Shown here: positions 18,996 through 41,126 of the stretch, in pieces | How positions within the stretch are numbered: position 1 is the first letter of the stretch | How the letters are laid out: each line of letters begins with the position of its first letter | NCBI GenBank assembly: GCA_015689645.1 | Contig: WVSM01000004.1 | Span: 124,001 to 188,000, forward strand | Origin: Rhodobacterales bacterium HKCCE4037 | GTDB taxonomy: Bacteria > Pseudomonadota > Alphaproteobacteria > Rhodobacterales > Rhodobacteraceae | Reading direction: 5' to 3' | Length of the DNA stretch: 64,000 nt | Notes under the pieces: model-generated | Databases searched by the model: none | What the model was told of the DNA's origin: nothing | What the model saw: the letters and a program-made list of their open reading frames with translations, nothing else | Position numbers and translations under genes: made by a program

Positions 18996-19403
18996 TCACG
19001 CCGCCCCACTGAAAAGCACGGCGACCACCATCGCGATGGTCGCAAGAAAGCCCGTGAACCAGACCAGCGACCGCCAGGGTCGCAGGCCGAGCGCATAGGC
19101 CGGAACGTAAAGCACCCGCGCGCCGAGGTAGACCCAGGCGCAGGCGGCGGTGAAGCCGCTGCCCCGGCCGGAGAGGCTCACGAGCACGACGGCGGCGGTG
19201 AAGAGGATCAGACCCTCGAAATGGTTGTTCAGCGCCCGTTGCAGCCGCCCGCCGAGGTCCGACAGGGGCCGCGACGGCTCTCGGTCGCGGGCCGACATCG
19301 CGTAGCCCGGCCCGACGTCGAGATTGGCGCGGACCGAGTAGGCCGCGAATTGCAGCGCCTGCAGCAGGATCGCGAGGGCGAGGGCTGTGAGTTCGGGGGT
19401 CAT
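18996..19403 (-). CDS. MAPEG family membrane protein 1
   Basis: 135 residues with four predicted membrane helices and the MAPEG pattern: N-terminal M-T-P-E-L, the R-x-x-R-A-x-x-N-H-F-E cytoplasmic loop and A-R-V-L-Y-V-P-A-Y-A-L-G. Characterised members of this superfamily handle glutathione or eicosanoids; bacterial relatives are mostly uncharacterised. It is paralogous to the next gene (both start M-T-P-E-L and share R-x-x-Y-[VI]-P-A-Y-A), 19 bp apart, inside the odhAB-lpd operon. Confidence 0.85.
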   Translation of the reverse strand: MTPELTALALAILLQALQFAAYSVRANLDVGPGYAMSARDREPSRPLSDLGGRLQRALNNHFEGLILFTAAVVLVSLSGRGSGFTAACAWVYLGARVLYVPAYALGLRPWRSLVWFTGFLATIAMVVAVLFSGAA

Positions 19404-19422: not shown

Positions 19423-19827
19423 TCACACCGCCGCCCCGCCCGTCAGCGCAACCCATGCCATCATCGCCAGACCGGCCAGCGACACGAAAAAGGCCAGCGA
19501 CCGCACCAGAGGGATGCCCGATGCGTAAGCAGGGATGTAGGCGACACGCGCCCAGAACCAGATCGCAGCCCCCAGAGCCGAGGTCTCGGTCGCGCGGTCT
19601 CCGACCGCCAGAACCACCGCCAGGGCGATGAAGGCCGGCAGCGTTTCGAGATAGTTTCGCAGCGACCGTTGGATCCGCCCGGCGAAGACGTTCTGGTCGC
19701 GTTGCTCGTCCTGCGGGCCGAGCGCCCAACCGAGGCCTTTCGACAGGTCGCTGAACGTCGCCTGCACGAGGACATGCACGACCAACAGGATCGCAGCATA
19801 GGTCAGGTAGATCAGTTCGGGAGTCAT
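19423..19827 (-). CDS. MAPEG family membrane protein 2
   Basis: 134 residues from ATG 19827 (AGGAACG upstream). It has four hydrophobic segments, the loop motif R-I-Q-R-S-L-R-N-Y-L-E-T-L and A-R-V-A-Y-I-P-A-Y-A-S-G. A tandem duplicate of the following MAPEG gene, it sits directly after odhB. Its presence inside an oxoglutarate dehydrogenase operon has no obvious enzymatic explanation. Confidence 0.85.
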   Translation of the reverse strand: MTPELIYLTYAAILLVVHVLVQATFSDLSKGLGWALGPQDEQRDQNVFAGRIQRSLRNYLETLPAFIALAVVLAVGDRATETSALGAAIWFWARVAYIPAYASGIPLVRSLAFFVSLAGLAMMAWVALTGGAAV

Positions 19828-19911
19828 GGGCTCGTTCCTTTCCTGACAGGACACTTGGCGAGTCGTGCCGGTCCGACAAACGCCGGGGTGAAAAACACCC
19901 CGGCGCTGAAA

Positions 19912-21441: not shown

Positions 21442-24393
21442 TTATCCTTCGATGGTCAGAGCGCTGTCGATCAGCGCCGCTTGTTGGGATTTGTGGGCGG
21501 AGGCCAGGCCCGTCGCGGGCGAGGCCGAGGCCGAGCGGCCCGCGTAACGGGGCCGGGTGTGCTTGGCACTGATGCGGGTCAGGACCCATTCGAGGTTCGG
21601 TTCCACGAAGGACCACGCACCCTGGTTCTTGGGTTCTTCCTGGCACCAGACCATTTTCGCGCCCTTGAAGCGCTCAAGCTCCTTGGTGAGCGCCAGCGCG
21701 GGGAACGGGTAGAATTGCTCCAGCCGCAGCAGGTAGATGTCGTCGATGCCACGTGCGTCGCGTTCCTCCAGCAGGTCGTAGTAGACCTTGCCCGAGCAGA
21801 TCACGACCTGCTTGATCTTGTCGTCGGCCACCAGTTCGGTGTCCGAATTGCCCTTCTGGGCGTCGTCCCAGAGCACGCGGTGGAAGCTCGACCCGGTGGT
21901 GAAATCCTCGGCCTCGCTGATCGCCAGCTTGTGGCGCAGCAGGGATTTCGGCGTCATCAGCACAAGCGGCTTACGGAAGTCACGGTGGATCTGGCGGCGC
22001 AGGATGTGGAAGTAGTTCGCGGGCGTCGTGCAATTCGCGACGATCCAGTTGTCCTCGGCGCTCATCTGCAGGAAGCGTTCGAGGCGCGCGGAGGAGTGTT
22101 CCGGCCCCTGCCCCTCGTAGCCATGCGGCAGCAGCATCACGAGGCCGGACATGCGCAGCCACTTGCGTTCGCCCGAGGAGATGAACTGGTCGAACATGAT
22201 CTGCGCGCCGTTGGCGAAGTCGCCGAACTGCGCCTCCCACGCGACGAGCGCGTTGGGTTCGGCCAGCGAATAGCCGTATTCGAACCCGAGCACGGCATAT
22301 TCCGAGAGCATCGAGTCGATGACCTCGTAATGGGCCTGTCCGTCCCGCACGTGGTTGAGCGGGTAGTAGCGTTCTTCCGTTTCCTGGTCGATCAGGCCGG
22401 AATGGCGCTGCGAGAAGGTGCCGCGCGTGGAATCCTGGCCGGACAGGCGGACCGGGTAGCCTTCGGTCATCAGCGATCCGAAGGCCAGCGCCTCGCCGGT
22501 GGCCCAGTCGAAGCCCTTGCCGGTCTCGAACATCTGCGCCTTCGCCTCGAGCAGGCGACCCACCGTCTTGTGGAGGTTGAACCCCTCCGGCGCGGTGGTG
22601 AGGGCCTTGCCGATCTCGGCCATGGTCTCGGGCTTGATCGAGGTGGTGCCGCGGTCGTATTCGGCGGTCTCGCGGTCGAGGTGGCTCCACCGTCCGTCCA
22701 GCCAGTCGGCCTTGTTGGGCTTGTAATCCTTGCCGGCCTCGAACTCGTCGTTGAGGTGGCTCTGGAACGCGGCCTTCATGTCCTCGATCTCGCCCTCGGG
22801 GATCAGGCCGTCCTTCACCAGTCGTTCCGTATAGAGGGCAAGGGTCGTCTTATGGCCCTTGATCTTCTTGTACATGATCGGGTTGGTGAACATCGGTTCG
22901 TCACCCTCGTTATGGCCGAAGCGGCGATAACAGATGATGTCGAGAACCACGTCCTTGTGGAACATCTGGCGGTATTCGGTCGCCACGCGGGCGGCGTGAA
23001 CCACGGCCTCGGGGTCGTCGCCGTTCACGTGGAAGATCGGCGCCTCCACCATCAGCGCGATATCCGTGGGATAGGGGCTGGAGCGCGAGAAATGCGGCGC
23101 GGTTGTGAAGCCGATCTGGTTGTTGACGACGATATGGATCGTGCCCCCGGTCTTGTGGCCGCGCAGGCCCGAGAGGCCGAAGCCCTCGGCCACGACGCCC
23201 TGCCCGGCAAAGGCCGCGTCGCCGTGCAGCAGGATGCCCATGACCTTGGTGCGTTCGGTGTCGCCCTTCTGGTCCTGCTTGGCGCGGACCTTGCCGAGAA
23301 CCACCGGGTTCACGGCTTCGAGGTGCGAGGGGTTGGCGGTCAGCGACAGGTGCACGTTGTTGCCGTCGAATTCACGGTCGGACGAGGCGCCGAGGTGGTA
23401 TTTGACGTCCCCCGACCCGTCCACGTCCTCGGGCTTGAACGAGCCGCCCTGGAATTCGTTGAAGATCGCGCGGTAGGGTTTGCCCATCACGTTGGCCAGA
23501 ACGCTCAGGCGGCCCCGGTGGGGCATGCCGATGACGATCTCTTCCAGCCCGAGCTGGCCGCCGCGCTTGATGATCTGCTCCATCGCGGGGATCAGGCTTT
23601 CGCCGCCGTCGAGACCGAACCGCTTGGTGCCCATGTACTTGACGTGCAGGAACTTCTCGAAGCCCTCGGCCTCGACCATCTTGTTGAGGATCGCCTTGCG
23701 CCCATTCTTGGTGAACTGGATTTCCTTGCCCAAGCCTTCGATCCGCTCTTTCAGCCACGAGGCCTGAACCGGGTCGGAGATGTGCATGTATTGCAGGGCG
23801 AAGGTGCCGCAATAGGTGCGCTTCACGATCTCGAGGATCTGGCGCATGGTGGCGGTCTGAAGGCCCAGAACGTTGTCGATGAAGATCGGCCGATCCATGT
23901 CGGCTTCCTTGAAGCCGTAGGACTTCGGATCGAGCTCGGGATGCGGGGTCTGGTCGCGCATGCCGAGCGGGTCGAGATCGGCGACGAGGTGGCCCCGGAT
24001 GCGGTAGGCGCGGATGATCATCAGCGCCCGGATCGAATCCAGCACCGCGCGCTGGATCTGGTCGTCGGTCAGCTCGACCTTGGCCTCGGCGGCCTTTTTC
24101 TTGATCTTCCTGCCCGCTTCCTTCGCCTCTTCCACCGGCCATTCACCGGTCAGCGCGGCGGTCAGGTCATCGCCCGGCATCGGCGGCCAGTCGCGGCGCG
24201 CCCAGGATGGCCCCTCGGCCTCGGCCGGGGCGGCATCGGCATCGCCAAGCGCCGCGAAGAAATCGGCCCATGCCGCATCCACCGCCGACGGGTCCTTGGC
24301 GTATTGCGCGTAGAGCTGTTCCAGGTATTCCGCGTTATGCCCCTGCATGAAGCTGGAGGCGTGGAACTGGTCGTTGGGGGATTGGTCCGTCAT
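21442..24393 (-). CDS. odhA: 2-oxoglutarate dehydrogenase E1
   Basis: 983-residue thiamine-diphosphate enzyme that decarboxylates 2-oxoglutarate in the TCA cycle. The N-terminal segment (S-S-F-M-Q-G-H-N-A-E-Y-L-E-Q-L-Y) is typical. Active-site stretches include G-M-P-H-R-G-R-L, H-G-D-A-A-F-A-G-Q-G, V-N-N-Q-I-G-F-T and, in the transketolase-like domain, S-G-Q-D-S-T-R-G-T-F-S-Q-R-H. ATG 24393 with GAGGA eight bases upstream is preferred over a TTG six bases earlier. It is transcribed in the order odhA-odhB-MAPEG-MAPEG-lpd. Confidence 0.96.
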   Translation of the reverse strand: MTDQSPNDQFHASSFMQGHNAEYLEQLYAQYAKDPSAVDAAWADFFAALGDADAAPAEAEGPSWARRDWPPMPGDDLTAALTGEWPVEEAKEAGRKIKKKAAEAKVELTDDQIQRAVLDSIRALMIIRAYRIRGHLVADLDPLGMRDQTPHPELDPKSYGFKEADMDRPIFIDNVLGLQTATMRQILEIVKRTYCGTFALQYMHISDPVQASWLKERIEGLGKEIQFTKNGRKAILNKMVEAEGFEKFLHVKYMGTKRFGLDGGESLIPAMEQIIKRGGQLGLEEIVIGMPHRGRLSVLANVMGKPYRAIFNEFQGGSFKPEDVDGSGDVKYHLGASSDREFDGNNVHLSLTANPSHLEAVNPVVLGKVRAKQDQKGDTERTKVMGILLHGDAAFAGQGVVAEGFGLSGLRGHKTGGTIHIVVNNQIGFTTAPHFSRSSPYPTDIALMVEAPIFHVNGDDPEAVVHAARVATEYRQMFHKDVVLDIICYRRFGHNEGDEPMFTNPIMYKKIKGHKTTLALYTERLVKDGLIPEGEIEDMKAAFQSHLNDEFEAGKDYKPNKADWLDGRWSHLDRETAEYDRGTTSIKPETMAEIGKALTTAPEGFNLHKTVGRLLEAKAQMFETGKGFDWATGEALAFGSLMTEGYPVRLSGQDSTRGTFSQRHSGLIDQETEERYYPLNHVRDGQAHYEVIDSMLSEYAVLGFEYGYSLAEPNALVAWEAQFGDFANGAQIMFDQFISSGERKWLRMSGLVMLLPHGYEGQGPEHSSARLERFLQMSAEDNWIVANCTTPANYFHILRRQIHRDFRKPLVLMTPKSLLRHKLAISEAEDFTTGSSFHRVLWDDAQKGNSDTELVADDKIKQVVICSGKVYYDLLEERDARGIDDIYLLRLEQFYPFPALALTKELERFKGAKMVWCQEEPKNQGAWSFVEPNLEWVLTRISAKHTRPRYAGRSASASPATGLASAHKSQQAALIDSALTIEG

Positions 24394-24472: not shown

Positions 24473-25081
24473 TCATTGCGCCACCTCTCGGACGAGCGTC
24501 ACGATAACGGCCTCGCGCACCGACAAGGGCGCAAGCACCGCTTCGTCGCCCTCGAAGCGGATCGCAGTTATTTCCAGAGACTGAACGCCGTCCGGACGCG
24601 CCGGATCGGGGATCGACCCGAACGAAATGGCCAGGTCTTCGGACGCCCGGACATCGGAGGCGAAGATCGTCGCGACATCGGCAACCTCCATGCCTGCAAA
24701 GACGCAGCGCACGGTTACTCGGCCGGGCTGGTCCACATCTGCGGAGATCGAGGCTGTCTGCCCGTCCCGCGTGAAAATCTCGTGAATGCCGAGGGTGCTC
24801 AGGTAGGTCGCAAGCGCCTGCCCGGCAAACTCGGTGGCCTCTTCCACGTCGAGGAAGCTGTACGGCAGGCTACGGGCCGCAAGCTCGACCTCGGCTAGGG
24901 GTGGCGCTGCTTGTTCGCGCCGTTGCGCTGCTGTCAGATGCGTCCAACCCGCGGCTTGCACGTCCGAAAAATCCGCGGTCACCCGCGACGCATCCAGGCA
25001 GGGTGCATAGATCGGATCCTCCTGGGCGGAGGCCGGCGCACCAAGCGCGAGGCAAGCTGCGAGCGGAACGAGGTGTTTCAT
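24473..25081 (-). CDS. Secreted two-cysteine protein, AGW subtype (1)
   Basis: 202 residues with a clear signal peptide cut after A-S-A-Q. The mature part has two cysteines, C28 and C126, 98 apart, probably a disulfide. The D-V-Q-A-A-G-W segment after the first Cys and V-x-C-x-F around the second match the protein encoded at 26209-26856. Its ATG overlaps the stop of the upstream DUF805 gene (ATGA), so it is translationally coupled in a suc-operon segment. No known enzymatic motif is visible; function unknown. Confidence 0.8.
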   Translation of the reverse strand: MKHLVPLAACLALGAPASAQEDPIYAPCLDASRVTADFSDVQAAGWTHLTAAQRREQAAPPLAEVELAARSLPYSFLDVEEATEFAGQALATYLSTLGIHEIFTRDGQTASISADVDQPGRVTVRCVFAGMEVADVATIFASDVRASEDLAISFGSIPDPARPDGVQSLEITAIRFEGDEAVLAPLSVREAVIVTLVREVAQ

Positions 25082-25488
25082 GTCACCGGGTCCTCGCCAT
25101 ACTGGTTCGGTCCCACATTGCCCTTGCTGGCCCAGAACACGATGTTGAGGATCGACAGCGCGGCGAAGCCGACGGCCCCGATCCAGAACACCGGGCCGAA
25201 CGGGTTATCCGTCACCATCCCGATGAGCATGATGATCGCCGGGATGAGCGGCACCAACGTCCACAGGCCCGTGCGGTCGATGTCGTGGAGGCGCCGCCAG
25301 GCCACCGCCGCGTAGGGCAGCAGCGTGGCGAGGTTCCACAGGCTCGAAAGCGCGTCGGAAACAAAGGACAGCGCGATGTCGACGACGGCGAGGAATAAAG
25401 CGAACCACCAGAATTCAGAGCGCCGCGCGCGGCCCGAGAAGACCACGAACTTGCTGAAACAGGTGGCGATGCTTTCGGTGAAGGTCAT
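25078..25488 (-). CDS. DUF805 membrane protein 2
   Basis: 136 residues, four hydrophobic segments. DUF805 marks: the N-terminal F-S-G-R-A-R-R-S-E-F-W-W-F, the W-R-R-L-H-D-I-D-R-T-G-L-W loop and the C-terminal G-P-N-Q-Y-G-E-D-P. It overlaps both neighbours by ATGA junctions, so three genes (25485-26075, this and 24473-25081) form one tightly coupled unit. DUF805 proteins are small inner-membrane proteins of unknown function. Confidence 0.88.
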   Translation of the reverse strand: MTFTESIATCFSKFVVFSGRARRSEFWWFALFLAVVDIALSFVSDALSSLWNLATLLPYAAVAWRRLHDIDRTGLWTLVPLIPAIIMLIGMVTDNPFGPVFWIGAVGFAALSILNIVFWASKGNVGPNQYGEDPVT

Positions 25489-26075
25489 TGCACGGGATCC
25501 TCCCCATGCTGGTTCGGCCCGATGGTGCCGCGTGTCGCCATCCAGATGATGATGAGCAGGCTCGGCAGGGTCTGGATGCCCGACAGGATCGTGGAGGTGC
25601 GGTTGAACTCCTCGAAATCCGCAAGCGCGGTTTCGATCTCGAAATACGTCGACGTCGGATCGAAGGCGACGATCATCAGCTCGGCCGATTGCGGGCCGGT
25701 GATGTTGAAGACCACGACGGACATGATCGTCACGAAGACGATGGTCACGATGAACCACCACGCGGGCCTGTCCTGGTCGTTCATCCGCCGCACGCCGCAG
25801 GCGAGGATCGGCAGGTAGTTCAGCAGGTACCAGAACGTCGTGATCGGCATGACGTTGATGTAGAAATCGGTGATCGACTGGAAGTTCACGGCAAGGAATT
25901 CGGCCACCTGACCGCCGCCCGCACTGGGCCAGAAGATCACGAAATCGAGGATGAAGGCGACGATCGCACCGAGCGACACGAAAAGGACGTACCACCAGTA
26001 GGCCGAGCGAGGATCGCGGCCGCTGAAGGTGGTGCAGTAGACGATGTTGTGCCGGATGGCTTCGGAAAAGGTCAT
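25485..26075 (-). CDS. DUF805 membrane protein 1
   Basis: 196 residues. Same family as the next gene: F-S-G-R-D-P-R-S-A-Y-W-W-Y near the start, C-G-V-R-R-M-N-D-Q-D-R-P-A-W-W in the loop, and an almost identical tail G-P-N-Q-H-G-E-D-P-V. It is longer because of an insert of about 50 residues between the third and fourth helices (around F-E-I-E-T-A-L-A-D-F). Tandem duplication with divergence is the simplest origin. It overlaps the next start by ATGA. Confidence 0.86.
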   Translation of the reverse strand: MTFSEAIRHNIVYCTTFSGRDPRSAYWWYVLFVSLGAIVAFILDFVIFWPSAGGGQVAEFLAVNFQSITDFYINVMPITTFWYLLNYLPILACGVRRMNDQDRPAWWFIVTIVFVTIMSVVVFNITGPQSAELMIVAFDPTSTYFEIETALADFEEFNRTSTILSGIQTLPSLLIIIWMATRGTIGPNQHGEDPVQ

Positions 26076-26208
26076 TTGGGGAACTCCGAAAGGAAAAGCT
26101 GAGAACTCCTTGCAGAGTGCCGCAGGCTGGCGCCGCGCGACAGGTCAGGAAATGCGCCATCGAAGCCCGGTCTGGCGGTGGTCCGGAGCCGGATATGCCG
26201 GGGAACGT

Positions 26209-26856
26209 TCATTGCGGCACCTGGTAGGTGTGGGACACTTCGAGCCCATACCGGATGGACATGTCCAGACCCTCAGCCTCCGGGATATCCGAACGCCAGA
26301 GCACGATGTCGCCGCCATCGGTCGTGTCGCTGACAGTCGAGATCGCGGAGTAGAAGGCCACGGGCCCGCCGCGCACTTCGGCGTCGGGCAGGTCGAGGAT
26401 TGTGTCAGCGCCGGGAAGTTCGGGCGTGGCGAGGGAGCAGAACACGCTCAACGTTCCCTCAAAGGCGCTGAATATAAAGGTCCTCATCACCGCATCGCCG
26501 TTCACGTAAAGCGCCTGGTCGGCTGAGACCTGCGGCTCTTCCGCGATGAAGGCGACGGTGTCTTCGAATTCCGTGCGCCGTTCGTCGGGCGTTGCGCCGC
26601 GCAGCCCGGCGCGGATCGCCAAGGCCTCGATCAACAGGGCTTGCGCGCTTTCATCGGCGCGGCTGCCCGGCTCGACCCGGACCCAACCGGCCGCAATCAT
26701 CGCGTCATCGTGCGCCTCGATGGACGGCACCGGGCTTGCACAGGGCTGGATCATTTCGGGCGCGCCCGAAAGATCGAACTCGAATGCGCCTGCAACTCCC
26801 GCGCCCAACAGGATGGGCGCGGACAGGACGGTGCCGATGAGCCGCGAAAACCGCAT
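26209..26856 (-). CDS. Secreted two-cysteine protein, AGW subtype (2)
   Basis: 215 residues: a signal peptide (hydrophobic 5-24), then mature cysteines C39 and C140, 101 apart. The A-M-I-A-A-G-W segment follows the first Cys at the same distance as in the 24473-25081 protein, so the two are distant paralogues. It begins 4 bp after the sucD stop codon (26861), i.e. directly downstream of sucD. No catalytic motif is visible. The length and pattern suggest a periplasmic binding or structural protein. Confidence 0.78.
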   Translation of the reverse strand: MRFSRLIGTVLSAPILLGAGVAGAFEFDLSGAPEMIQPCASPVPSIEAHDDAMIAAGWVRVEPGSRADESAQALLIEALAIRAGLRGATPDERRTEFEDTVAFIAEEPQVSADQALYVNGDAVMRTFIFSAFEGTLSVFCSLATPELPGADTILDLPDAEVRGGPVAFYSAISTVSDTTDGGDIVLWRSDIPEAEGLDMSIRYGLEVSHTYQVPQ

Positions 26857-26860
26857 GGCG

Positions 26861-27742
26861 TTACCCGATCGCCTCCAGAACCGCTTCCCCCAGCGTCGCG
26901 GGGCTGTCGGCCACGACGATGCCGGCGGATTTCATCGCTTCGATCTTGTCCTCGGCGCCGCCCTTGCCACCGGCCACGATGGCACCGGCATGGCCCATGC
27001 GGCGGCCCGGAGGGGCAGTGCGGCCCGCGATGAAGCCTGCGACCGGCTTCTTGCGGCCCTTCTTGGCCTCGTCCTTGAGGAATTGCGCGGCTTCCTCCTC
27101 GGCGGAGCCGCCGATCTCGCCGATCATGATGATCGAGTGCGTCTCGTCGTCAGCAAGGAACCATTCCAGCACGTCGATGTGTTCCGTGCCCTTGATCGGG
27201 TCACCGCCGATGCCGACGCAGGTGGACTGGCCGAGGCCCACGTCGGAGGTCTGCTTGACCGCCTCGTAGGTCAGCGTGCCAGAGCGGGACACGACGCCGA
27301 CCGAGCCGCGACGGTGAATGTGACCGGGCATGATGCCGATCTTGCAGGCGTCGGGCGTGATGATGCCGGGGCAGTTCGGCCCGATCAGGATCGAGGAGGA
27401 GCCTTCCAGCGCGCGCTTCACCTTCATCATGTCGAGCACGGGGATACCTTCGGTGATGCAGCAGATCAGCTCCATCTCGGCGTCGATGGCTTCGAGGATC
27501 GAGTCGGCGGCGAAGGGCGGCGGGACGTAGATGACCGTCGCGTTCGCTTCGGTCTTTGCCTTGGCCTCGTGCACGGAGTTGAACACCGGCAGGTCGAGAT
27601 GGGTCATGCCGCCTTTGCCCGGCGTCACGCCACCCACCATCTTGGTGCCATAGGCAATCGCCTGTTCCGAATGGAACGTGCCCTGCGAGCCGGTGAAGCC
27701 CTGGCAGATTACTTTGGTGTTTTCGTCGACGAGTACGGCCAT
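26861..27742 (-). CDS. sucD: Succinyl-CoA ligase (ADP-forming) alpha subunit
   Basis: 293 residues. The CoA-binding Rossmann domain opens with [13 protein letters not shown], followed by [15 protein letters not shown]. The phosphohistidine is in [11 protein letters not shown]. It makes succinate and ATP from succinyl-CoA with the beta subunit (sucC, 29329-30522). Unusually, three small secreted-protein genes separate it from sucC rather than direct sucCD adjacency. Confidence 0.97.
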
Positions 27743-27752
27743 GTCTGGGCTC

Positions 27753-28271
27753 CTAGTGGGTCGTTGAGATGACGCCGCGGATCAGCGTCTGGGTCTGCGA
27801 TTGATGCACTTCGAAACGATGTTCGAAGGGCGATGAGAATTGCGCTGGAGTGCCGAACCAGTGAAAGGTCGGGATATTCTCGGGCGCGGTGACTTCGGCG
27901 ACAGCGCCCTGGCGTGTCGCCTCCTGCTGGATGGCGAGTATGGCTTCGGCCCCGAAAGCCTGAAGGGCCGCCGGATCGAGCGCGCGGTCGTCGACTACAA
28001 ATTCGCAGGAGCGTTGCGTCGTTGTGAAGGTCACACCGACACGCACACTTTCGTCGCCTCCCGGGCGGGTCCAGTAGAATTCGGCGGGGCCGGCGAAGGT
28101 TTCGCGGTCGAGGAGAGCCTCGTATCCGTCCGGCAGCTCCATCAGACCCGGAGGCGTGGCGACAAGGCAGGTTTCAGCGAACAGGGTGACAGCTCCGGAC
28201 ACACCGGTCTGGGCCGACGCAAGACAGGGCACGGACATCGCGGCGAGGGCAAGAACGAACCGCATCATCAT
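27753..28271 (-). CDS. Secreted two-cysteine protein, FAxxC subtype (3)
   Basis: 172 residues. The signal peptide ends at A-S-A-Q, and the mature protein has C35 in F-A-E-T-C-L and C89 in R-S-C-E-F-V, 54 apart. The pattern F-A-x-x-C then x-x-C-x-[VF]-x is shared with the next two upstream proteins. Three consecutive ATG codons are available; the first overlaps the upstream stop (ATGA). It lies 10 bp ahead of sucD, so it is co-transcribed with it. Confidence 0.8.
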
Positions 28272-28822
28272 GGCTCGATCGGCATCAGCCGCTCCACGAA
28301 AAGGAAGGTCTCTGTGCCATTCGGGCCGGGCCGCGTGCCGGTGTGGACAACGGCGATGCGGCGCGGGTTGAGCTGCCGCGCGCCCAGGAGGCTGGTGGTG
28401 TCCGTCGCCTCGTAGCGATCCGGCAAGGGGGCCTCGGTGCGAATGCCTTCGGCTTCCAACCCGGCGATCGCCGCGCTGGCGGCCAATTCGCCGTATTCAC
28501 CATCGAAGGCCACTTCGCAGCGGCGATCGGTGCCGATGGTGGCCGGACTGCCGGTGACGGGAGACGGCTCGACATCCGAGAACGGGTCGAGGTCGTAGAA
28601 GTCGACGCGCACGCCTGGGGCTGCCAGAACCTCCTCGGCGCGCTCGGCCGTCATGAAGGGGCTGAAGCAATTCTCGGCGAAGGCGGCGCTGGCGTCCTCG
28701 GCAATGGCGTCCGGGTCGCTCTGCGCATGCACCCGCGTCGCGGCGAGGATCATCAACCCCACGACGCCCGCGACATGGAGGCTTGCCCAGATCAGGCTGC
28801 GGCTGCGCGACGGTGTATTCAT
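28268..28822 (-). CDS. Secreted two-cysteine protein, FAxxC subtype (2)
   Basis: 184 residues with an N-terminal export signal (hydrophobic about 14-29, cut after H-A-Q). Mature cysteines are C52 in F-A-E-N-C-F and C102 in R-R-C-E-V-A-F, 50 apart. A helix rich in Ala and Glu follows the second Cys (A-A-S-A-A-I-A-G-L-E), as in its neighbours. It is coupled by ATGA to the next gene. No family with a known function is recognised. Confidence 0.78.
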   Translation of the reverse strand: MNTPSRSRSLIWASLHVAGVVGLMILAATRVHAQSDPDAIAEDASAAFAENCFSPFMTAERAEEVLAAPGVRVDFYDLDPFSDVEPSPVTGSPATIGTDRRCEVAFDGEYGELAASAAIAGLEAEGIRTEAPLPDRYEATDTTSLLGARQLNPRRIAVVHTGTRPGPNGTETFLFVERLMPIEP

Positions 28823-28865
28823 GCGACCCGCGCTCCGGTCAGGTGCCGCACTTGTTCATTCGTCA

Positions 28866-29321
28866 TCACCACTGCACCTCCACGCTGGCCCGATAGTACG
28901 GGTCGGCCTGGCCTTCCAGCCGGATGATCTCGATATCCTGCGCGCCGATCCCGACCAGCGCCGCAGCGGACTCGCGGAAGACGTCCGCGACGGTCTCGGG
29001 GTCGGCTGCAAGAAACACCATCGAGCAGATCGCACCCGCAGGGTTTACCGACATGTCGAATTGCTGGTGAAAATACGTGCCCGTCTCAGGGTTCGGCACC
29101 ATGCCCAAGCCGGTCAGCAAGGTCTGCGTGTCGGCAAGATTGGCGCTTTGCAGACAGGCCGAGGCAAAAAGGCGGGCGAGCACGGCGGGGTTCGCTGTGC
29201 TGGACCCGACCGACGGGGCCTGCGCATGCACGCTGCCCGCCCCCGCGCACAGCATTGCGACCGCCGAAACCAATCCGATGGTCCGGCGGCGCAATGACCC
29301 TGCCTGGTGGGGGGAGCGCAT
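28866..29321 (-). CDS. Secreted two-cysteine protein, FAxxC subtype (1)
   Basis: 151 residues from ATG 29321, chosen because the export signal (hydrophobic about 15-30, cut after H-A-Q) begins soon after. The mature cysteines are C56 in F-A-S-A-C-L and C99 in A-I-C-S-M-V-F, 43 apart. It starts 7 bp after sucC, so it is translated from the same message. With the two genes below it, it makes a run of three related secreted proteins between sucC and sucD. Confidence 0.78.
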   Translation of the reverse strand: MRSPHQAGSLRRRTIGLVSAVAMLCAGAGSVHAQAPSVGSSTANPAVLARLFASACLQSANLADTQTLLTGLGMVPNPETGTYFHQQFDMSVNPAGAICSMVFLAADPETVADVFRESAAALVGIGAQDIEIIRLEGQADPYYRASVEVQW

Positions 29322-29328
29322 GTCCGGC

Positions 29329-30522
29329 CTAGCCTTTGACGGCCTTGACGATCTTCTCGGCACCGTCCTTCAGGTCATCGGCGGCGATGACGTTCAGGCC
29401 GGAGGAGTTGATGATCTCCTTGCCCTTGTCGACGTTGGTGCCTTCGAGCCGGACAACAAGCGGCACTTCGAGGCCGACTTCCTTGACCGCCGATACCACG
29501 CCCTCGGCGATGATGTCGCAGCGCATGATGCCGCCGAAGATGTTGACGAGGATGCCTTTGACGTTCGGGTCGGAGGTGATGATCTTGAAGGCCTCGGTCA
29601 CCTTCTCCTTCGTCGCGCCACCGCCCACGTCTAGGAAGTTTGCCGGTTCGGCGCCGTAGAGCTTGATGATGTCCATCGTCGCCATGGCAAGGCCCGCGCC
29701 GTTGACCATGCAGCCGATCTCACCGTCGAGGGCGATGTAATTGAGGTCGTACTTGGAGGCGGCGAGTTCCTTCGGATCCTCTTCCGTCTCATCGCGGAGC
29801 GCCGCGATATCCTGGTGGCGGTAGACGGCGTTGCCGTCGAAGCCGACCTTCGCGTCGAGCACTTTCAGATCGCCGCTGTCGGTCACGATCAGCGGGTTGA
29901 TCTCGAGCATCTCCATGTCCTTCTCGACGAAGGCGGTATAGAGTTGGCCCATCAGCTTGACGCATTGCTTGACCTGCGCACCTTCAAGCCCGAGCGAGAA
30001 GGCCACTCGCCGCCCGTGGAACGGCTGATAGCCGGTGGCGGGGTCGACGCTGAACGACAGGATCTTTTCCGGGGTCGATGCGGCGACTTCCTCGATATCC
30101 ATGCCGCCCTCGGTCGAGCAGACGAAGCTGATGCGGCTGGTCTGACGATCCACCAGAAGGGCGAGGTACATCTCGGTCTCGATCCCCGAGCCGTCTTCGA
30201 TGTAGATGCGGTTGACCTGCTTGCCGACCGGGCCGGTCTGGTGCGTGACCAGCGTGCGGCCGAGCATGCGCTTGGCTTCATCGGCGGCTTCCTCGACCGA
30301 TTTGGCCAGGCGCACACCGCCCGCTTCGCCCGCGTCGGCTTCCTTGAAGCTGCCCTTGCCACGTCCACCGGCGTGGATCTGCGCCTTCACGACCCAGAGC
30401 GGACCGTCGAGTTCACCGGCCATGGTCTTGGCTTCCTCGGCCCGGGTCACCACCCGCCCGTCCGAGACCGGAGCCCCATATTGCCGCAGAAGTGCCTTCG
30501 CCTGGTACTCGTGGATATTCAT
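29329..30522 (-). CDS. sucC: Succinyl-CoA ligase (ADP-forming) beta subunit
   Basis: 397 residues with the ATP-grasp domain: N-terminal [28 protein letters not shown] and [10 protein letters not shown] near the C-terminus. It is the first gene of the long minus-strand operon sucC-(three secreted proteins)-sucD-(secreted)-DUF805-DUF805-(secreted)-odhA-odhB-MAPEG-MAPEG-lpd. A paired TGTGATCACA operator lies 111-141 bases upstream. Confidence 0.97.
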
Positions 30523-30767: not shown

Positions 30768-31781
30768 ATGACAGGCAAGCATCAATGGGGGGTCGTTGCA
30801 ACCGTCGCGGAACCCGCGCCGCTTGTGATGGCCTTCGTGGCGCATCACCTGAGCCTCGGCGCGGCCGAGATCCACATCTACCTCGACGCGCCCGATGACC
30901 CGGCGGGCGAGGTGCTGGACTGGCTTCCGCCGGTCCGGGTGACACGCTGCGACAAGGCGTATTGGCAGGCCGTCGCGCCGCGCCGTCCGCGTCGCCACAA
31001 CAACCGCCAGTCGATCAACGCCACCCATGCGCAATCTGTCTGCAAAGTCGACTTCCTGCTCAGCTGTGATGCGGACGAATTCCTGCGCCCCATGTCGGAC
31101 GTGCAGGCGCAGATCGCTGAAATTCCCGATTGGGCGACGTGGGCGAAGGTCTTCAACCTCGAACGCGCGATGATCCGGGGCGTACCGCAACGCACGATCT
31201 TCGACGGGGCGTTCAAGGTGCATTACCAGGGGCGGGACGACACGCCGCTGCGCCGGTCCGAACTTGCGCCGATGGGCTTTACCGGCCATGCGGCGGGCAA
31301 GCCGCTGGTGCGTACGAAGATCGGCATGAATATCGGCATCCACGTCCCGCGCCATGGTCATATCAAGGACCGCATCGTGCCGCCGCACTATCCCGCCGAC
31401 CAGATCGAGCTGGTGCATTTCGACGGGCTGACGCCGTTGCACTGGGCGGGCAAGTTCATCCGGCAAGCCGCCAAGACGCCGGACCGGCTGGAGCAATTGC
31501 CACCGTTCCGGATCGCCCAGTGGAAACGGATCGCCGCCTGCCTGCACGACGATGCCGCCCTGCGGGCGCTCTACGACGAGGTCAATGGCTACGACGCGGC
31601 GGAGTTGGAGGCGCTGGAGGACGACGGCTACGTCGTGCAGGAGACGTTCGACCCGTCTGCCGCCCTGGCCAGTGTTTTTCCGGGGCAAACCGTTGATCTG
31701 AGCCCCAAGGCGTTCGATGCGCTCTTGCGCCCGCGGGTGGACCAGTGGCTGCGCACGGCAAGAAAGAACGGGGCGGTTTAG
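30768..31781 (+). CDS. Glycosyltransferase family 2/92-like protein
   Basis: 337 residues. The N-terminal V-A-T-V-A-E-P-A-P-L-V-M-A-F-V-A-H-H-L-S-L-G-A and I-H-I-Y-L-D-A-P-D-D are typical of the DUF23/GT92-like group. The metal-binding D-x-D is in S-C-D-A-D-E-F-L. There is no signal peptide or membrane helix, so it acts in the cytoplasm, probably on a surface glycan. The gene is convergent with the LicD-like gene (4-bp overlap), and together with TagD they make a small surface-polymer module inserted between sucC and mdh. Confidence 0.82.
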   Translation: MTGKHQWGVVATVAEPAPLVMAFVAHHLSLGAAEIHIYLDAPDDPAGEVLDWLPPVRVTRCDKAYWQAVAPRRPRRHNNRQSINATHAQSVCKVDFLLSCDADEFLRPMSDVQAQIAEIPDWATWAKVFNLERAMIRGVPQRTIFDGAFKVHYQGRDDTPLRRSELAPMGFTGHAAGKPLVRTKIGMNIGIHVPRHGHIKDRIVPPHYPADQIELVHFDGLTPLHWAGKFIRQAAKTPDRLEQLPPFRIAQWKRIAACLHDDAALRALYDEVNGYDAAELEALEDDGYVVQETFDPSAALASVFPGQTVDLSPKAFDALLRPRVDQWLRTARKNGAV

Positions 31782-32644
31782 CTTGCGATCGCTTTCAGGA
31801 ACCGATCGAACTTCGCGTTCGCTTCTTTCCAGCCAAAGGTCCAGCCTTCGTTCGGCACGCGCCAACTCTCCCCGTAGTTGCAGACCAGCATCGCCTCGGC
31901 ATCCGCCGGAACCTTCAGCCCCGTGGCGCCATGTGTGACCAACGGAACCAGCTGGTCACGGGCCATCTCGCCGAACGTATGCGGATAGACGAACACCTTG
32001 TCCGAGCCATCGATCCATGCTGGGAACAGGTCCACACCAAACGGCCCGATCTTGTGCAGTTTCAGCGTCACACCACTCCAACTCGACCGCTCGACGCCGA
32101 CGCCCGCAGCGATGAGCCGGTCGCACAATCCGATCCATTCCTTGGCGGCTTCGTCCACGTCGCGGGCCTCCAGAAGGACGCCAAGGTCGATGTCATTGTC
32201 GTATTTCAGCAGGGTGCCTTCGCGCACGATGCCAAGGAGTGTCCCTGAGTTTGCAAAGACCTCGAGCCCAAGCTCTTCCATGCGCGCAGCCAGCGCCTGG
32301 CAATCGGTCAGCACCGCGTCCACGTCGGCATTGCGAAACGTTTCAGTGTAGGCGCTGCCATTGGGCAGGTTGAAACCGAGATCATCCTCGATCACCCGCA
32401 GGAATTCGTAATAGTCCGCCTCCTGACCGGCTTTTCGGCAGACCCGGCTGAGTCGTGAGATCAGTCGCTGCGTCGCGAAGGCCTTGTTCCGCGTCGCGCA
32501 ATGAAGAACGATCCAGGCCTGCATCCACGCGACATCATTGCGGTCGCGAACGGCCTCCAACGCGTCGAGCAGACGCTCATAGTCTGCCTTGGAAAAACCT
32601 TCGCCCCGCGCCTTTCTCCAGACCTCGTCAATCACTTCAGTCAC
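31778..32644 (-). CDS. LicD-like phosphotransferase (nucleotidyltransferase fold)
   Basis: About 288 residues from GTG 32644, which overlaps the tagD stop (GTGA). The LicD/fukutin signature is S-G-T-L-L-G-I-V-R-E-G-T-L-L-K with Y-D-N-D-I-D-L-G-V, whose aspartates bind metal. An N-terminal ~100-residue helical part precedes it. LicD-type enzymes transfer phosphocholine or a similar phospho-alcohol from a CDP carrier to a glycan. The coupled CDP-forming TagD next to it suggests CDP-glycerol as donor, an inference from context. Confidence 0.8.
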   Translation of the reverse strand: MTEVIDEVWRKARGEGFSKADYERLLDALEAVRDRNDVAWMQAWIVLHCATRNKAFATQRLISRLSRVCRKAGQEADYYEFLRVIEDDLGFNLPNGSAYTETFRNADVDAVLTDCQALAARMEELGLEVFANSGTLLGIVREGTLLKYDNDIDLGVLLEARDVDEAAKEWIGLCDRLIAAGVGVERSSWSGVTLKLHKIGPFGVDLFPAWIDGSDKVFVYPHTFGEMARDQLVPLVTHGATGLKVPADAEAMLVCNYGESWRVPNEGWTFGWKEANAKFDRFLKAIAS

Positions 32645-33099
32645 AACGAAGCCGCCTTGTTGTTCAGGGTCTCGATCAGGTGCTTGATCTCGCCGATCTG
32701 CTCGGTGCGCAACGCGTCCATATAGGCCTTGAGCGAGGTGGTCGAGACGTCGTCCGTACGCGGAAGATAGACAACCTCGCACAGGTCTTTCAGGTCATCG
32801 AATTTGCCGCTCCAGTCATTGCCCATGGCGAAGATGTCGATCTTCTGTTCCACGATGTCGGTGCGCTTCTGCGCCCAATCGCTTTCGGGCAAAACCGCAT
32901 CGACGTACCGGCAGGCCGACAGGATCTCGGCCCGTTGCTCGTAGGGAATGACGGATTTCTTGCCCTTTACCGCGTTGAATTCGTCGGTGGAGACGCAGAC
33001 CGTCAGGTGATCACCAAGGCTCGCCAGCCGTTGCAACAGTCGGACATGGCCGATGTGGAACAAGTCGAAGGTTCCATAGGTGATTACGCGTTTCGGCAT
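32641..33099 (-). CDS. tagD: Glycerol-3-phosphate cytidylyltransferase-like protein
   Basis: 152 residues. Nucleotidyltransferase motifs: G-T-F-D-L-F-H-I-G-H (HxGH), the L-A-S-L-G-D-H-L-T-V-C-V-S-T-D-E-F-N segment and the R-T-D-D-V-S-T-T end motif (RTxxISTT in TagD). It makes a CDP-alcohol, most likely CDP-glycerol, as donor for the overlapping LicD-like enzyme. A sigma70-like promoter is visible upstream. In Gram-negative bacteria such pairs decorate capsules or lipopolysaccharide. Confidence 0.88.
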   Translation of the reverse strand: MPKRVITYGTFDLFHIGHVRLLQRLASLGDHLTVCVSTDEFNAVKGKKSVIPYEQRAEILSACRYVDAVLPESDWAQKRTDIVEQKIDIFAMGNDWSGKFDDLKDLCEVVYLPRTDDVSTTSLKAYMDALRTEQIGEIKHLIETLNNKAASL

Positions 33100-33249: not shown

Positions 33250-34638
<1,389 letters not shown>

Positions 34639-40388: not shown

Positions 40389-41126
40389 ATGAAACGCGTT
40401 ATCCTGCATGCAGGCCTGCCCAAGACTGGATCAACGTCGATCCAATCAATGCTTTGCGACAGGGCCGACGAACTCGCAGAGCTAGGCATCTGCGTCATGT
40501 CACGCACTACGACGACGCGTCAGGTGTCTCGGGCCGCGCGCACGTTTCTGAACAACAAGGCCGTTTTTCCGGCTTTTCTCTGGGCAGCCTTGAAACTCCG
40601 CTTGGCGATCATTTCGCAATCTTGCACGACAATTCTTGTGTCCAACGAGAACCTGCTTGGTCTCTACAGCTCCGAAATGTTTGGCCGTAACTTTGAAAAT
40701 CGGTCGCGACTTCTGGTCAATACTTTGCTTCTGGTCCTACGTGGGTGTGACGTTTCGATCGTCCTTTACGACAGGGATGCGAGCAGTTTGCATCGATCAG
40801 CCCTAAAACAAAGATGGAACAAGAGTAAGGAGATTTCTGAGGACGAATGGTACAGGAAGTTCCCCGACCCTCTTGTTCCATCGCGCTATATCGAAGCAAT
40901 GAAGACTTCGTTCCCCGGATTGGTCGAATGCGTCCGAATGGAGGACGAGATTTCAGCCGGTCACTATCTCGGGGAGCGCCTTTTGGAAATGTCCGGAGCC
41001 TCTGTCCTAGGTCCACCGCAAAAAACATATCACGAAAATGTTGGTTCGCCTTCACCAAAAGCTTCTGAGCGCGATGCGATTGACGCTCCCTATGGCGCTG
41101 AGGTTTCAAATGTTCCGGATCAGTAA
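40389..41126 (+). CDS. Sulfotransferase-like protein inserted in the sdh operon
   Basis: 245 residues. The N-terminus R-V-I-L-H-A-G-L-P-K-T-G-S-T-S-I-Q is the PAPS 5'-phosphosulfate (PSB) loop of sulfotransferases. The 3'-phosphate region is weak (L-Y-D-R-D-A-S-S-L-H-R-S), so a degenerate or different nucleotide-dependent transferase is possible. Two 60-base blocks within it have only 29 and 25 G+C, far below sdhA, and codon use differs. Its position between sdhA and sdhB points to recent transfer. It starts 22 bp after sdhA and probably uses the sdh promoter. Confidence 0.8.
   Translation: MKRVILHAGLPKTGSTSIQSMLCDRADELAELGICVMSRTTTTRQVSRAARTFLNNKAVFPAFLWAALKLRLAIISQSCTTILVSNENLLGLYSSEMFGRNFENRSRLLVNTLLLVLRGCDVSIVLYDRDASSLHRSALKQRWNKSKEISEDEWYRKFPDPLVPSRYIEAMKTSFPGLVECVRMEDEISAGHYLGERLLEMSGASVLGPPQKTYHENVGSPSPKASERDAIDAPYGAEVSNVPDQ

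Follow-up and report, generated by a model that had tools for sequence, protein, structure and literature searches.

Predicted exported two-cysteine proteins occupy fixed gaps of the suc operon in Rhodobacteraceae, a candidate site of gene insertion

Organization of the sucC–odhA segment

The stretch of DNA analysed here, referred to as the window, comprises 64,000 nucleotides of contig WVSM01000004.1 from Rhodobacterales bacterium HKCCE4037, and all coordinates below are positions in the window. It contains part of the mdh-sucC-sucD-odhAB operon of the tricarboxylic acid (TCA) cycle, in which five genes for predicted exported proteins, named A to E, and two genes for DUF805 membrane proteins are interspersed with conserved enzyme genes. 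The order on the minus strand is sucC, A, B, C, sucD, D, DUF805a, DUF805b, E, odhA. The enzyme genes are the anchors that delimit two gaps, or slots. The first slot, between sucC (29329–30522) and sucD (26861–27742), holds A (28866–29321), B (28268–28822), and C (27753–28271). The second slot, between sucD and odhA (21442–24393), holds D (26209–26856), DUF805a (25485–26075; PF05656 E-value 3.4e-18), DUF805b (25078–25488; PF05656 match in its own genome), and E (24473–25081), with the DUF805 pair as further slot cargo.

The open reading frames (ORFs) of A to E are all present, and each encodes two cysteines after a predicted signal peptide, as the initial annotation of the window had stated; the signal peptides were called by a crude in-house rule and not by a trained predictor. 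The cysteines are residues 56 and 99 in A, 52 and 102 in B, 35 and 89 in C, 39 and 140 in D, and 28 and 126 in E, which corresponds to spacings of 43, 50, 54, 101, and 98 residues, respectively. In the first slot, 7 bp separate sucC from A, 43 bp separate A from B, B and C overlap by 4 bp, and 10 bp separate C from sucD. In the second slot, the distances are 4 bp from sucD to D, 133 bp from D to DUF805a, and 79 bp from E to odhA, with 4 bp overlaps between the two DUF805 genes and between DUF805b and E. The tight packing that had been annotated, with most gaps below 50 bp or overlapping, is borne out by values of −4 to 43 bp, the exceptions being those upstream of DUF805a and odhA. The scan for regulatory sites gives no hint that the operon is interrupted: it found no promoter-like sites (1.0 expected in shuffled sequences) and three terminator-like sites on both strands (4.3 expected).

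The presence of inserts in this operon is already known. Christie-Oleza, Miotello, and Armengaud reported in 2012 variable, poorly conserved genes between sucC and sucD, and between sucCD and sucAB (PMC3305630). The sections of that paper that concern the operon describe the inserts as present in all Roseobacters compared and not at all conserved, with similar inserts within sdhCDAB, and leave their function open. One of them, the 169-residue SPO_PG006 of Ruegeria pomeroyi, was detected by five peptides and is co-transcribed with sucCD (PMC3305630). The question posed in 2012 was whether the inserts aid the TCA cycle or exploit its expression. Among the papers that the literature searches covered, no other description of the locus was found, nor any of the families, slots, and scars presented below; a paper on a Phaeobacter phage (PMC7643831) has no bearing on the locus. 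New here are the two families and their fidelity to slots, the scars, and a confident model of a type I protein that lacks a clear match in the Protein Data Bank (PDB).

Two families of two-cysteine proteins

Profiles were built from fast-evolving exported two-cysteine ORFs read in the suc gaps of relatives. They assign A and B to one family, to which C is joined more weakly (type I, with A in subfamily Ia and B in subfamily Ib), and D and E to another (type II). Type I proteins have an F-x3-C motif followed by the second cysteine 43–54 residues on, whereas type II proteins have a C...GW motif and a cysteine spacing of 98–101. The more specific motifs recorded in the initial annotation, F-A-x-x-C in A, B, and C and an A-A-G-W segment in D and E, are present together with these spacings.

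The links within the families are of unequal strength. Comparison of the A and B profiles is weak (39% and 26% in two hhalign comparisons), as is that of A and C (59% and 32%), and C is tentatively assigned to type I; the F-x3-C motif and the second cysteine align in both pairs. For D and E, the connection is a single protein from a different genus (locus L102) that both of them match. Between type I and type II, just the region of the first cysteine is aligned (hhalign 1.9%). The description of A to E as five related proteins was therefore too strong: they belong to two families that are unlinked by sequence.

Where a residue is present, the cysteine columns are invariant in Ia (29 of 29 and 27 of 27), Ib (20 of 20 in both columns), and type II (26 of 26 and 23 of 23). 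In a small group, Id, the second cysteine column is kept in only two of four sequences. An ORF in locus L250 was called type-I-like from its LFAELC...FEC pattern, for which hhalign gives just 1.8%.

The families keep to their slots across genera

In a set of 248 genomes of the family, one per genus, sucD was found in 239. Eighty suc loci were fetched from the listed best-matching rows and are not a random sample. Within these best 80 loci, tblastn detected sucC and sucD in 80, odhA in 79, odhB in 78, and mdh in 73, and the order mdh-sucC-sucD-odhA-odhB is maintained in nearly all of them. By contrast with the anchors, A was matched in two of these loci, B in four, and E in one, and no tblastn match was found for C or D. 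A profile search of the 248 genomes with C returned only its own genome.

A recognizable family member is nevertheless present in 23 of the 80 one-per-genus loci, and the union of the Ia, Ib, and II profile searches identified members in 49 of the 248 genomes. Profile Ia matched 31 genomes in 36 rows. Thirty Ia loci were returned, with 24 members in the sucC|sucD slot, three next to mdh or in the mdh–sucC gap, and three elsewhere, so that 27 of 30 are inside the cluster (18 of 21 when the nine seed genomes are left out). Six Ia rows had no locus: two lie beside sucD by their coordinates (G032:C51 and G158), one lies elsewhere, and three weak ones (G004:C509 and two in G017) are unplaced and stand outside the slot counts. 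Profile Ib matched 12 genomes, in 11 of which the gene is beside sucD; the twelfth match is weak and has an internal stop. Profile II matched 16 genomes in 20 rows, 17 of which are in the sucD|odhA slot or adjoin one of its two anchors; the other three are all in one genome, G222. Without seed genomes, nine of 12 type II rows are in the cluster. The three type II paralogues of G222 (L152, L164, and L165) are far from suc genes, and a fourth similar ORF adjoins the one in L164.

Under a uniform null model, with a 10 kb target in a genome of 3.8 Mb, the probability of such placement is 5e-44 for type I and 1e-21 for type II; the model is crude and ignores shared descent. Members were detected by hidden Markov model searches in 56 of 173 loci around sucD, and in every row listed of the 56, type I members are in the sucC|sucD slot and those of type II in sucD|odhA. 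The seeds for this count were themselves taken from slots of this kind, and at least 12 duplicate pairs are present within the locus sets. A search of 240 genomes of the class found only the genome of the window. Within the genus Ruegeria, a broad type I profile matches 12 of 54 genomes, and 12 of 14 loci are beside suc genes. No link of SPO_PG006 to type I was found: none of the Ruegeria matches is located at its published coordinates, in a set of 54 that may not include its genome.

Exported two-cysteine proteins thus recur at the suc cluster in Rhodobacteraceae and are bound to this locus, which bears out part of the earlier proposal, but they are not a single family. Their conservation beside suc genes is evident for the families and hardly for orthologues, which does not cleanly refute that proposal. 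The 2012 paper also suggested that the inserts are young orphan genes, that is, unrelated new ORFs that are expressed by virtue of arising in a highly expressed operon (PMC3305630). That idea is in line with the finding of no homologue of C in 12 congeners and the other genomes of the 248, and with the lack of conservation reported for inserts in all Roseobacters compared. However, it is highly improbable for the set as a whole, given that many exported inserts belong to recurring families with invariant cysteine pairs (the exception being Id), and that A is predicted to form a well-shaped domain. The results suggest that some such orphans belong to rapidly diverging families whose members can be recognized chiefly by where they lie.

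Fast evolution and exchange of cargo

Searches with tblastn of 12 congeneric genomes found B in 12, A in nine, and E in three, and neither C nor D in any of the 12. The median ratios of non-synonymous to synonymous polymorphism (pN/pS) between the window and its congeners are 0.59 for A, 0.31 for B, and 0.71 for E, in comparison with 0.075 for sucD and 0.09 for sucC, with synonymous changes near saturation. The recovery of A, B, and E in congeners, each with a pN/pS under 1, indicates that the observation is more than chance.

The content of the slots differs between close relatives. The position just before sucD, which is taken by C in the window, is occupied across the genus by a membrane protein, an FkbM-type methyltransferase, or no called gene. 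Identity between loci L173 and L174 is 95–96% towards odhA and 90% towards sucD, yet the two contain different exported two-cysteine ORFs between DUF805 and odhA. Loci L177 and L178 share 89–93% identity in the blocks that align and differ from each other at three places.

The same gaps accommodate other genes. Gaps of at least 250 bp occur between sucC and sucD in 46 of 80 loci and between sucD and odhA in 54 of 79, but between odhA and odhB in none of 78. The best 80 loci contain 38 called ORFs in the first gap and 42 in the second. Pfam assignments in the first include sulfotransferases, GT25 glycosyltransferases, methyltransferases, and PMT-like mannosyltransferases, with two to three members each, and DUF805 is found in 26 of the 42 ORFs of the second. 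The sucD-odhA gap of L064, L067, and L220 contains exported alpha/beta-hydrolase-like proteins, with Pfam hits in a set that includes L064 and L067; SPO_PG005, near the position of this gap in R. pomeroyi, is listed as an esterase-lipase in PMC3305630.

These observations bear on the function put forward in the initial annotation, an envelope system tuned to carbon flux, in which the exported and DUF805 proteins would aid TCA-linked uptake, sensing, or assembly and would have to be produced together with the enzymes. The tight gene packing, the strong slot fidelity over many genera, and the presence of B in every congener are what such coupling would lead one to expect. Most genera with the same operon nevertheless lack members of the families, inserts are rapidly swapped between close species, and the gaps otherwise carry sugar- or surface-type enzymes, which makes the coupling distinctly unlikely.

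Truncated copies of anchor genes in relatives

A second short match to sucD was first noticed in loci of Ruegeria, and the slots were then scanned systematically. With a threshold of at least 8 of 15 residues, a truncated copy of the start of sucD is present in 11 of 144 scorable sucC|sucD slots and in none of the 144 shuffled slots, where the maximum was 6. The 11 slots include two same-genome pairs and represent nine distinct genomes: seven of Ruegeria (L197, L202, L309, L310, L311, L314, and L315), Sulfitobacter algicola (L215), and L042; G043 is assigned to Ruegeria because L316 and L306 have long identical stretches in common with L197 and L202. The copy begins at the start codon, with unrelated sequence upstream, and loses identity after approximately 30–60 bp (approximately 130 bp in L311). 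It stands after a type I gene or, in L042, after another exported two-cysteine ORF. The insert that follows it, where one was called, is a GT25 gene (L202 and L315), a methyltransferase-like gene (L311), or a type Ia gene (L042).

Copies of the end of sucC were detected in two of 137 slots, L311 and L250, and in no shuffled slot. In L311, a partial sucD of 45 codons forms a fusion with a sucC tail; the methyltransferase-like gene and the full sucD come next. In L250, the type-I-like ORF precedes approximately 30 codons from the tail of sucC, after which come a type Ib gene and sucD. A donor segment with a sucC end, cargo, and a sucD start that crosses over in sucD and is joined illegitimately upstream would be expected to leave such joints, and the junctions of L311 and L250 fit one homologous and one illegitimate joint. 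Including L215, L042, and L250, at least four lineages are scarred, as counted by name and not on a tree.

A putative insertion site with anchor genes as recombination handles

The five genes of the window are probably the cargo of a standing, anchor-driven insertion site in the mdh-sucC-sucD-odhAB operon of Rhodobacteraceae. The sucC|sucD and sucD|odhA gaps would be open to insertion and the odhA|odhB gap closed. Typical cargo would consist of small exported proteins with one cysteine pair, type I in the first gap and type II in the second, together with DUF805 proteins and enzymes resembling modifiers of surface sugars. At one end, a donor piece composed of a sucC end, cargo, and a sucD start may undergo homologous recombination inside the anchor gene, which is very conserved, whereas its other end would be joined illegitimately. 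The new cargo would come to lie beside the older, with no damage to the anchor gene, and the event would at times leave a remnant of either the former sucD start or the sucC end of the donor. Addition from donors through the anchors would result in families that keep their slots, in tandem paralogues, and in content that differs between close species. The vehicle of transfer can be guessed to be gene transfer agents. The process suggested by the scars of relatives would also have filled the slots of the window, and the benefit to the cargo may be to ride a well-expressed operon.

Several observations weigh against an insertion site. The slots of the window have no scar, with best matches of five or six of 15 residues, as in shuffled sequences, and none of the joints of the L311 and L250 kind occurs in the window. 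Copies of the odhA start were found in none of 166 slots and of the sucD end in none of 169; therefore, the second slot is without scar evidence. Ruegeria alone accounts for seven of the nine distinct sucD scars; these share upstream sequence and may trace to one or a few events. Members also occur outside the cluster, at L126, L133, L135, and G032:C42 for type I, and as the three type II paralogues of G222. It may also be a functional tie that holds the genes close to suc. Finally, distances among Ib proteins weakly track those of SucC and SucD combined (Spearman 0.41; 50 of 2000 permutations as high), which fits descent that is in part vertical.

Vertical descent could be extended to the whole system: types I and II would have been present in the operon of the ancestor of Rhodobacteraceae, with fast divergence and many losses and without any insertion site. 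Slot specificity, the order Ia-Ib-(third)-sucD that recurs in several genera, and the Ib correlation are consistent with it. By contrast, Ia distances do not track SucC and SucD (Spearman 0.09; 518 of 2000 permutations as high), although identity is near saturation; scars stand beside type I and Ib genes, and inserts are swapped between close species. An origin of the system by vertical descent alone is therefore unlikely.

With regard to function, the proteins may, with some doubt, be envelope factors of the periplasm or outer membrane, stapled by a disulfide and facing fast-changing partners, such as phages or the toxins of neighbours, and not helpers of the TCA cycle. A broader and more speculative proposal is that the suc operon is a self-propagating diversification locus, with essential TCA genes as recombination handles through which small disulfide-bonded exported proteins and surface-sugar enzymes are exchanged, and that the two-cysteine families constitute an unrecognized repertoire of envelope immunity or receptor shielding that is always expressed through the host operon. 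Types I and II could then belong to one superfamily, type II having an extra helix pair between its cysteines.

Predicted structures

AlphaFold2 models were obtained for two of the five proteins, A and E, with predicted local distance difference test (pLDDT) values of 83.0 and 75.6. A is predicted to be a well-formed domain. In both models, the first cysteine is on an early helix and the second on a strand before the next helix, as judged by the order of elements and not by superposition, and this likeness is suggestive only. The initial annotation had proposed to examine whether the five proteins share one fold; the two models do not cleanly establish unrelated folds.

Foldseek and VIA searches gave no clear match for A, for which BFVD was also searched, or for E, and PDB sequence searches gave nothing usable for the families. 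Pfam, NCBIfam, and PHROGs had no usable match for any of A to E, and no PADLOC-DB family matched A to E or the DUF805 proteins at E-values up to 0.1. The arrangement of secretion chaperones and YbjN proteins (SycN-YscB, SycT, SycE, YbjN, and AmyR) has Z-scores against A within the range of common arrangements, and the C-domain of T4 MotA (5.4) ranks above it. Unlike these proteins, A is predicted to be exported, has a cysteine pair, and has no sequence link to YbjN. Membership of the YbjN family (PF10722) was rejected, as A to E had no match at E-values up to 1 and hhalign against Rhodobacteraceae YbjN gave 0.06–0.38%. Loci L304 and L305 encode exported YbjN-domain proteins of Rhodobacteraceae with a C-x5-C pair and no sequence kinship to types I and II. 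The NMCC_0638 family (lipo)protein model (NF047650) was rejected as well: A scored 12.2 bits against a cut-off of 28, with an E-value of 0.14. It weakly matched two of nine relatives (best E-value 0.0032), and B to E had no match at E-values up to 1.

Other genes in the window

The sucC-mdh gap (30768–33099) contains surface-sugar-type genes: a GT2 glycosyltransferase gene on the plus strand and, on the minus strand, a LicD-like gene just under the cut-off and a cytidylyltransferase-like gene. Upstream of mdh (34329–34634, minus strand) is a gene for a small exported-looking protein of 101 residues with two cysteines and no Pfam match. The sdhA-sdhB gap holds a 245-residue ORF (40389–41126, plus strand) with a PKTGST motif and a Sulfotransfer_4 match under the cut-off (E-value 0.026), a kind of insert that is also found in suc slots of other genera. 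A tandem pair of MAPEG-family genes (18996–19403 and 19423–19854, minus strand) is located between odhB and lpd.

Comparison with known systems

The families, slots, and anchor-gene scars make the question of 2012, whether the inserts aid the cycle or exploit its expression (PMC3305630), a testable one. The predictions are that the proteins are exported and disulfide-bonded and give envelope phenotypes, and that homology in sucD drives the addition of genes. The results suggest that a core metabolic operon can serve as a landing site. The segment resembles the TCA-operon inserts of Roseobacters described in PMC3305630 in that A, B, and C, and D, the two DUF805 genes, and E are at the same positions and are poorly conserved between genera. 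It differs from that account in that many inserts here are members of two exported two-cysteine families, with fixed slots and scars.

Oliveira et al. described in 2017 chromosomal hotspots at which the genes between core genes are replaced rapidly, in many cases in the absence of mobile elements (PMC5635113). Such hotspots recombine in flanking core genes and share the rapid turnover observed here. Unlike them, the site discussed here is inside a core metabolic operon, and its inserts are gene-sized, slot-specific, and from recurring families. The apparent combination of one homologous and one illegitimate joint in L311 and L250 is like that of homology-facilitated illegitimate recombination, which PMC3240628 describes for the integration of linear DNA in laboratory settings; by contrast, here such a process is suggested by the scars that relatives have at a natural locus.

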